NCBI GenBank assembly: GCA_913041085.1
Contig: CAJWHN010000006.1
Location: forward strand, 1-40,176
DNA length: 40,176 nucleotides
Source: an uncultured Flavobacteriales bacterium
GTDB taxonomy: Bacteria > Bacteroidota > Bacteroidia > Flavobacteriales > UBA7312
Direction: 5' to 3'
Part shown: positions 14,899-17,884 of the stretch, in pieces
How positions within the stretch are numbered: the stretch's first letter is position 1
Layout: each line of letters opens with the position of its first letter
Translations under genes and position numbers: made by a program
The notes under the pieces: model-generated
What the model was told of the DNA's origin: nothing
What the model saw: the letters and a program-made list of their open reading frames with translations, nothing else
The model's database searches: none

Positions 14899-15984
14899 TC
14901 ATTTAATGTGTTTTTTACACTTATTCCAATACTTGAAAAAGCTAGGAAAATAACCCTTGACAGGAAATATCCAATCTCTATCTTCCTCTGTTCCTTCATA
15001 ACAATGATTTTGAGGATGTTCTTTATAGTAAATATGACTTTCTTTGGTAACTTTTTTTAATTCCTTGAACTCGCCAACAAATAATTTTATGCCATTAATA
15101 TTTTTAGATAAGTTTAACATAAATTCCATTGATTTTTTAGAAATCGGGTAATTTTCAAAAACAGATGGTTCGACAAGAAGAATTCTATTCGCATCAACAT
15201 TTATTTTCCATTGTGGGTCGAGGTTATAAAAGTTATATATAAATGTAGGCTTATTGGTGTCAATTTTAATTTCTTCAGTCATTTTGGGCAGAGGTGTAGT
15301 CAGTTTTAAGTCCTTAAGTTCTGCTAATTCATTGGGAATTTTTAAATCATTAAACTGATGGTACTCAATATCAAGAAAAGTATTTTTTTGAGAGGTATAG
15401 CAGTATTTGTTGATATTGTTCTGATTAGCATAATACAATTTATTACTATTGCTACCGCATACCCATTGCCAACTCAAAGCATTACTTGCCCAATCTGCAT
15501 CTAACAAATGATAATACATCCATTGAGCAGGTAATTTCCAATGAGACTTAGCCACATTACAACAAAGTGATGCTATGTACATACGCAGGTGGTTGTGTAT
15601 GTATCCACTTTCATAAAATTCTATTATACTATCATCTATGGCTTTTATAGAGGTTTTTCCGTCAATAATAGCTTTTGGTATAAGGTGATTTTTAACCTTT
15701 TCTTGCTTATTTTTTAAATCAAAATTGATTAGAGTGCCTTTTTCTATCCAAATTTGTTGCCAATAATCTCTCCAAGCTAATTCTTGTACAAATTTTTCGA
15801 TTTTATAAAATGGATAACTTTGAGCCATGACATATTCAAAAACTTGTTTGGTAGAAATGACACCTCTAGAAATATAAGGTGATAATTTACTGACATCTCC
15901 ATCAATAAAATTACGATTCTTAGCGTATTCAACAGGTTTGAGTAGGACTAACTTCTGAAGTATTTGTGAGAAGTCTGTATGCAT
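14899..15984 (-). CDS. photolyase/cryptochrome-family FAD-binding protein lacking an N-terminal antenna domain, with a C-terminal alpha/beta-like extension
   Basis: LSPYISRGVISTKQVFEYV, FVQELAWRDYWQQIW, YIHNHLRMYIAS, LLDADWASNALSWQWVCGSNSNKLYYANQNNINKYC; C-terminal RILLVEPSVFENYPISKKSMEFMLNLSKNINGIKLFVGEF...GYFPSFFKYWNKCKK. Confidence 0.87.
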   Translation of the reverse strand: MHTDFSQILQKLVLLKPVEYAKNRNFIDGDVSKLSPYISRGVISTKQVFEYVMAQSYPFYKIEKFVQELAWRDYWQQIWIEKGTLINFDLKNKQEKVKNHLIPKAIIDGKTSIKAIDDSIIEFYESGYIHNHLRMYIASLCCNVAKSHWKLPAQWMYYHLLDADWASNALSWQWVCGSNSNKLYYANQNNINKYCYTSQKNTFLDIEYHQFNDLKIPNELAELKDLKLTTPLPKMTEEIKIDTNKPTFIYNFYNLDPQWKINVDANRILLVEPSVFENYPISKKSMEFMLNLSKNINGIKLFVGEFKELKKVTKESHIYYKEHPQNHCYEGTEEDRDWIFPVKGYFPSFFKYWNKCKKHIK

Positions 15985-16549: not shown

Positions 16550-17884
16550 ATGTTCAAAAAAGTTTTACTATTTCTACTTTTTTCGCCATTTATTTTAAAA
16601 GCTCAAGACTGTATCGACTCAACAGCTATTGACCCGGGTTGTATTTGTTTTTTAATCTATGATCCTGTTTGTGGATGTGACGGTGAATTGTATAGCAATG
16701 CGTGTGAGGCCACACAGTGTTTTGGTGTTACATCATATGTTTCGGCATACGATACCAATGGGAATATAATAGATTGTTCTTCAGTATCCTCAGATAATTC
16801 TATTTGCGACTCTATTAATGTGGATGTAGAATCATTTAATTTTGTGTCAGATGATGGAGAAGCTTCTTTGACTATAAATATGTCCACCTTCTTTACTTCA
16901 TCAGATTTCTTTGGTTATGCAGGTTTTGTATTTTTAAATTCCGATGGAGAAGAAATTGCTGAGGAAGGTATGGACGCTGGAAATGTGTATGGTTTTGGTG
17001 CTAACTACAGTGATACGAGAACATTATATTTTGAAGAATTTTTTAGTATTCCTTTTGAAGGAAGCTTGTTGCTTTATGAAGGATTTTTTGCTGGAAACCC
17101 TGAGCTTGCATGTTCATTTCCTATTAGCTTTGGTCTTGATGGTTCTGGTATTTCTTTAGAGGGACAATATCATTTAGCCGAAGAATACGATTATGTGGAG
17201 TTTACTTCTGATTCTTTATTTGTTTATGACTTTGAAGAAGATATGGAATGCTACGAGTATATTGCCTTTAGTTATTTAGCATCAGACTCTCAGTTAGTAC
17301 TTACTAGTATAGAACTTGAGGAGCAAATTTTGTTTGATTATGAATTTTCTGAAAATAATATAATGCTAATGACTACTGAAGATAATATTTTGTTGGATTA
17401 CACCTCTTTTGATGCTTCAGAGTGGGAAGAGTGTAATGAAGATTCTACAGACTGTATTATTTCTAATGTATTTGCTGAGGCAGGTGAATGTGATAGCTTA
17501 GGTTATTTTATGGTTGATATAGAATTTGATGTGGAAAACCCTATTGCTTACACCTTTACTATTCAGGGTAATGGCACGAATTACGGTTCTTTTGAATATG
17601 GAGAGCCCTTTTATCAATTAGGACCTTTTTTAGGTGATGGTGAGACCGAATATGAGTTTGCTATTACAGACAATGAGGATTCAGAATGTTCTGACTACTA
17701 CGTTTTAGGAACGGTAAGTTGTGATGTTATTTCTAGTATCACCAATTTCGAAATATCAGACAAACGACTTTTATTCATCAAGAATATTTTAGGTGAAACG
17801 GTCAATAAGCTAGAGCCTAATAACCCATACATCTACTTTTATGACGATGGTAGTTTTGAAAAGAAGATTATTTTTGTACAGTAA
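16550..17884 (+). CDS. secreted acidic protein with N-terminal Kazal-like domain and DGSFEKKI-type C-terminal tail
   Basis: Signal peptide MFKKVLLFLLFSPFILKAQ; CICFLIYDPVCGCDGELYSNACEATQCFGVTSY Kazal-like; C-terminal NPYIYFYDDGSFEKKIIFVQ. Confidence 0.78.
   Translation: MFKKVLLFLLFSPFILKAQDCIDSTAIDPGCICFLIYDPVCGCDGELYSNACEATQCFGVTSYVSAYDTNGNIIDCSSVSSDNSICDSINVDVESFNFVSDDGEASLTINMSTFFTSSDFFGYAGFVFLNSDGEEIAEEGMDAGNVYGFGANYSDTRTLYFEEFFSIPFEGSLLLYEGFFAGNPELACSFPISFGLDGSGISLEGQYHLAEEYDYVEFTSDSLFVYDFEEDMECYEYIAFSYLASDSQLVLTSIELEEQILFDYEFSENNIMLMTTEDNILLDYTSFDASEWEECNEDSTDCIISNVFAEAGECDSLGYFMVDIEFDVENPIAYTFTIQGNGTNYGSFEYGEPFYQLGPFLGDGETEYEFAITDNEDSECSDYYVLGTVSCDVISSITNFEISDKRLLFIKNILGETVNKLEPNNPYIYFYDDGSFEKKIIFVQ

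Follow-up and report, generated by a model that had tools for sequence, protein, structure and literature searches.

DNA photolyases that reverse the usual domain order have been reported in bacteria since about 2020. Haney et al. 2022 (PMC9426592) described 'reverse domain order' photolyases, Phr4/5/6, in picocyanobacteria, with a reported contribution of Phr4/Phr5 and Phr6 to UV survival; Emmerich et al. 2020, as cited there, described Phr7-type photolyases that carry a Z-domain and act on cyclobutane pyrimidine dimers (CPDs) in single-stranded DNA; and NewPHLs and SPLs are treated as an inverted-topology class that repairs CPDs in single-stranded DNA (PMC13274461). Here we analyse a 361-aa photolyase homologue encoded in a 40,176-nt stretch of DNA (the window; contig CAJWHN010000006.1 of assembly GCA_913041085.1) from an uncultured Flavobacteriales bacterium, together with its relatives in the Bacteroidota. 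A reading of the window sequence alone (the sequence-only reading) had proposed an inverted order of domains. The order itself is supported by the results below, although its novelty is not, being already on record in both of the studies given by accession; the Bacteroidota proteins nevertheless are a separate, well-supported clade. The protein is probably a flavin adenine dinucleotide (FAD)-dependent DNA photolyase of the inverted-topology superclade (NewPHL/SPL/Phr6-like) that repairs CPDs and occupies the niche of cry-DASH.

As the sequence-only reading held, the protein starts with the FAD-binding helical region and has no N-terminal α/β domain. Pfam assigned only FAD_binding_7 (residues 65–187, E = 3 × 10−20, profile positions 1–128 of 203), and matched neither DNA_photolyase (PF00875), the N-terminal antenna domain of class I enzymes, nor the PF04244 N-terminal domain characteristic of FeS-BCP/DPRP anywhere in the 361 residues. 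Solved photolyases in the PDB align to residues 16–183, and the photolyase models of NCBIfam match weakly, far below their cut-offs. The C-terminal domain has no direct Pfam or NCBIfam match; a weak Pfam match of the protein to RVT_connect, under that model's cut-off, was dismissed. The FAD domain resembles that of class I enzymes, as it would in a conventional photolyase that had lost its N-terminal half through frameshift or deletion, but this explanation can practically be discarded. The reading frame is closed three codons 5′ of the ATG, and none of the relatives carries an antenna domain upstream. A genome scan, which returned 80 loci of 208 candidates, puts the family at no fewer than 80 members, with at least 80 homologues that keep the full length (55–81% identity) with similar lengths and start points; this common start and length, together with the conserved C-terminal domain, rules out a frameshift artefact, and a truncated conventional photolyase was rejected on the same grounds.

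The C-terminal region of about 115 aa is conserved about equally to the FAD part (mean column identity 0.70–0.74 in the family alignment), with the motif YNfYNlDP.W..NRiLLLEPshF..YPvS...VGeF..L..iyyKEHPLN..Y.G..e.RdWmF.v.GYypSFFkfWKKcKK. Its ratio of non-synonymous to synonymous substitution (dN/dS) against the closest relative is approximately 0.2, indicating purifying selection. Conservation and dN/dS together mark it as a selected domain, neither a tail nor a product of chance. AlphaFold2 (AF2), run on the whole chain with 74 aligned sequences, gave a mean predicted local distance difference test score (pLDDT) of 96.4 and a predicted template modelling score of 0.92, with residues 247–360 forming an α/β domain (strands and helices at 247–251, 266–271, 283–293, 299–303, 306–313, 318–321, 332–334 and 349–360). 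Modelled alone, the domain was still predicted with confidence (pLDDT 92.5), in keeping with the ordered α/β region originally suggested and not with a short unstructured tail. Foldseek with the whole model found photolyases and cryptochromes only among the matches listed, the best of which spans roughly 208 columns, as would be expected if just one half can be aligned sequentially.

Is this domain the displaced counterpart of the canonical N-terminal one? The clearest evidence comes from relatives in Deinococcus (L104, L138 and L139), which have the FAD part in common and a longer C-terminal domain. That of L104 matches PF00875 with E = 7 × 10−4, under the Pfam cut-off, and the Deinococcus tails match a profile of the canonical N-terminal domain with 96% probability (E = 2.7 × 10−9, 112 columns), establishing the inverted order in these outgroups. 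The window family gives a weaker match to the canonical profile that is in register through strand 2, helix 2, strand 3, helix 3 and strand 4. Against the combined canonical profile it scores 26.0, above the maximum of 21.9 in 200 column shuffles (0 of 200 as high), and the highest score from nine unrelated decoy families was 16.8. Judged by the AF2 secondary structure, the domain has lost the equivalents of canonical helices 1 and 4, which would take away much of an antenna pocket. Inverted domain order is therefore the best reading, with the C-terminal domain probably a shrunken version of the N-terminal domain of canonical photolyases; these data, the FAD-domain tree included, do not discriminate between circular permutation and a simple domain swap.

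The Deinococcus proteins also show that photolyases of a kind described without an α/β domain can bear one at the other end. SPLs (Xu et al. 2021), as papers citing that study describe them, have a class I/III-like FAD part, as here, but are described without an α/β domain, which the Deinococcus relatives carry C-terminally; some SPLs have four iron–sulfur (Fe–S) cysteines, whereas the Bacteroidota family has none. The picocyanobacterial Phr4/Phr5 and Phr6 likewise place the FAD domain before the photolyase domain, but they differ in having Fe–S cysteines and a recognisable photolyase domain, at times split over two genes (PMC9426592). Deinococcus sp. QL22 encodes the FAD half and the α/β half separately, in adjacent genes that overlap (L140:1396-2169 and 2166-2687), a layout resembling that of cyanobacterial phr4/phr5.

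In a tree of FAD domains, with plasmid-borne alphaproteobacterial and Deinococcus proteins standing as proxies for the published NewPHL and SPL sequences, the Bacteroidota family forms one clade (support 100/99). All inverted proteins, from Bacteroidota, alphaproteobacteria and Deinococcus, group together against the canonical ones with support of 100/100 when the long-branch rows of DPRP and of CPF490, a photolyase homologue discussed below, are left out. The ancestral domain order is not readable from this tree. NewPHL, or Phr7 with its Z-domain, resembles the Bacteroidota proteins in its N-terminal FAD domain, short C-terminal domain and lack of Fe–S cysteines, as described in papers citing Emmerich et al. 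2020; it differs in that the Bacteroidota clade is separate from the alphaproteobacterial NewPHL-like rows, and in profile comparison the C-terminal domain of that clade shows no detectable resemblance to the alphaproteobacterial tails. Inverted photolyases are thus common in Bacteroidota, beyond proteobacteria, Deinococcus and cyanobacteria. The Bacteroidota-type gene also occurs in records titled Rhodobacteraceae, Verrucomicrobia or Gammaproteobacteria (L026, L036, L042 and L059), through misbinning or transfer.

The catalytic residues, placed by PDB and family alignments with the established numbering of Escherichia coli photolyase, read as class-I CPD-like rather than DASH-like. E68, W71, R72, N131, R134, D162, D164, N168, W149 (W359 in E. 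coli) and W172 are invariant in the 74 sequences; M135 is kept in 72 and W174 in 73, and H132 occupies the position of E. coli R342. The family therefore shares with class I CPD photolyases the FAD and CPD contacts (E274, W277, N341, M345, N378 and W384 in E. coli numbering), and departs from them in its reversed domain order and in having no recognisable antenna domain and no outer tryptophan of the electron-transfer triad. From cry-DASH it differs in retaining Met and Trp at two positions that are Gln and Tyr in DASH, and the 361-aa protein scores 61 bits against a TIGR02765 cut-off of 317. Repair of (6-4) photoproducts has been suggested for the Fe–S inverted photolyases Phr4/Phr6, Haney et al. 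having inferred such activity of Phr4/5/6 from their Fe–S cysteines (PMC9426592). For the Bacteroidota proteins this is very unlikely: the four Fe–S cysteines are absent from the family, whose FAD domain has only two well conserved cysteines among the 74 sequences (C142 and C195), Met135 is of the CPD type, and every one of the 16 gene-bearing genomes surveyed below already has a DPRP photolyase, which is of the (6-4) type.

Several observations weigh against an inverted, CPD-repairing photolyase. With the C-terminal domain alone, Foldseek returned no confident match in the PDB and no photolyase domain among the 50 matches listed; the leaders were weak and comprised nucleotidyltransferases, methyltransferases and a universal stress protein (best E = 0.2, nucleotidyltransferase-like). 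A PDB sequence search with the C-terminal profile found no match, and PDB searches surfaced no solved inverted photolyase. The window family does not rise above shuffles against the four Deinococcus tails alone (37 of 200 as high), and support for the inverted group falls to 89/79 with DPRP included. Homology of the reduced domain consequently leans on the weak profile signal and on the Deinococcus intermediates. These Foldseek leaders, the missing PF00875 match in the family itself and the poor match to the Deinococcus tails would suit an unrelated small α/β (HUP- or Rossmann-like) module acquired by a truncated photolyase, with no true inversion. Nucleotidyltransferases, universal stress proteins and the photolyase α/β domain have previously been grouped in one HUP superclass, so the leaders are compatible with a photolyase α/β origin while being no evidence for it on their own. 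We consider an acquired module unlikely, given that element order and register follow the canonical domain with no shuffle scoring as high, that the nearest outgroups have a recognisable photolyase α/β domain at the same place and that the inverted proteins form a single clade.

Also on the negative side, all 74 sequences have I, L, V or M in place of the outer triad tryptophan (E. coli W306), so photoreduction must take another path. This loss, and an operon that often includes a photolyase homologue with an altered active site, might indicate a cryptochrome-like light sensor instead of a repair enzyme. A sensor is quite unlikely, however, as the class I FAD- and CPD-contacting residues are kept, there is no additional signalling tail and DNA repair has been published for relatives.

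As a DNA photolyase, the protein would bind FAD in its N-terminal helical domain and, under blue or near-UV light, repair CPDs by electron transfer. The displaced, shortened α/β domain would pack on the catalytic domain and close the FAD site as a lid, probably without an antenna pigment. The sequence-only reading had raised a different chromophore; nothing points to a new one, and the shrunken domain argues instead against any antenna.

The genomic context links the family to cry-DASH. Relatives commonly have the gene in one operon with those for a DPRP photolyase, a Flavin_Reduct protein and CPF490, a photolyase homologue of about 490 aa. DPRP falls inside the 3-kb flank in 60 of 79 loci, and CPF490 directly follows the inverted photolyase gene in 34 of 79. 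CPF490 also directly follows DASH in four genomes read, so that the inverted gene often occupies the operon slot of DASH. Among 198 Bacteroidota genomes, 16 of which carry the inverted gene, DPRP is present in 16/16 with the gene versus 49/182 others (P = 5 × 10−9), and the two genes lie within 3 kb of each other in 9 of the 16. Within the DPRP genomes, true DASH occurs in 1/16 with the gene versus 39/49 without it (P = 2 × 10−7), and at genus level in 1/12 versus 22/28 (P = 5 × 10−5); over all 198 genomes, with no conditioning on DPRP, avoidance of DASH is not significant (1/16 versus 44/182, P = 0.13). Exclusion of DASH and the shared operon slot support a like-for-like replacement, some phylogenetic dependence being allowed for. 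If the inverted photolyase fills the DASH niche, and often its slot, it is likely to prefer DNA that is single-stranded or locally melted. NewPHL, too, is said to be an apparent substitute for DASH. Whether two enzymes of different build share one job can be tested directly on this swap beside the same partner genes.

CPF490, found beside the inverted photolyase or DASH (L066:4077-5537, L078:4062-5531 and 41 more sequences; L151-L157), sits on a very long branch and has near-invariant changes at the active site: R278→H, N341→F, M345→A, N378→H, W382→F and W384→M in all 43 sequences, and E274→R in 42. Judged by these residues, it is probably no ordinary photolyase. It is possible, though we put it forward only tentatively, that a minimal, antenna-less inverted photolyase specific to Bacteroidota displaced cry-DASH in a conserved light operon and acts together with CPF490, elsewhere also the companion of DASH. 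The Flavin_Reduct gene, present in the operon in 34 of 79 loci (L004:4079-4732 and similar), could hold the photolyase flavin reduced.

Table 1. Positions of the photolyase gene, its domains and its catalytic residues in the window
Feature	Coordinates	Strand	Remarks
Inverted-order photolyase gene	14899..15984	(-)	361 aa + stop; ATG start
N-terminal FAD-binding helical domain, residues 1–210	15355..15984	(-)	Pfam PF03441, PDB photolyase alignments, Foldseek
Linker, residues 211–245	15250..15354	(-)	Least conserved part; mean column identity 0.50
C-terminal α/β domain, residues 246–361	14902..15249	(-)	AF2 elements and in-register profile match
E68-W71-R72	15769..15783	(-)	E274-W277-R278 of E. 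coli photolyase; substrate/FAD contacts, invariant 74/74
N131-H132-L-R134-M135	15580..15594	(-)	N131, R134, M135 = E. coli N341, R344, M345 (CPD-type Met)
D162, D164, N168, W172, W174	15463..15501	(-)	E. coli D372, D374, N378, W382, W384

The gene of the window genome lies away from the operon partners CPF490, Flavin_Reduct and DPRP. A light-response region elsewhere in this genome (L145, G000:C8:14000-32000) encodes a MerR/B12-binding regulator, two flavin reductases, and DPRP and class I photolyases, and further holds phytoene-desaturase-like (CrtI-like) and carotenoid-type genes. On the plus strand of the window, positions 16550-17884 encode a secreted-looking protein with an N-terminal cysteine-rich segment that appears Kazal-like by eye (YDPVCGCDGELYSNACEA).
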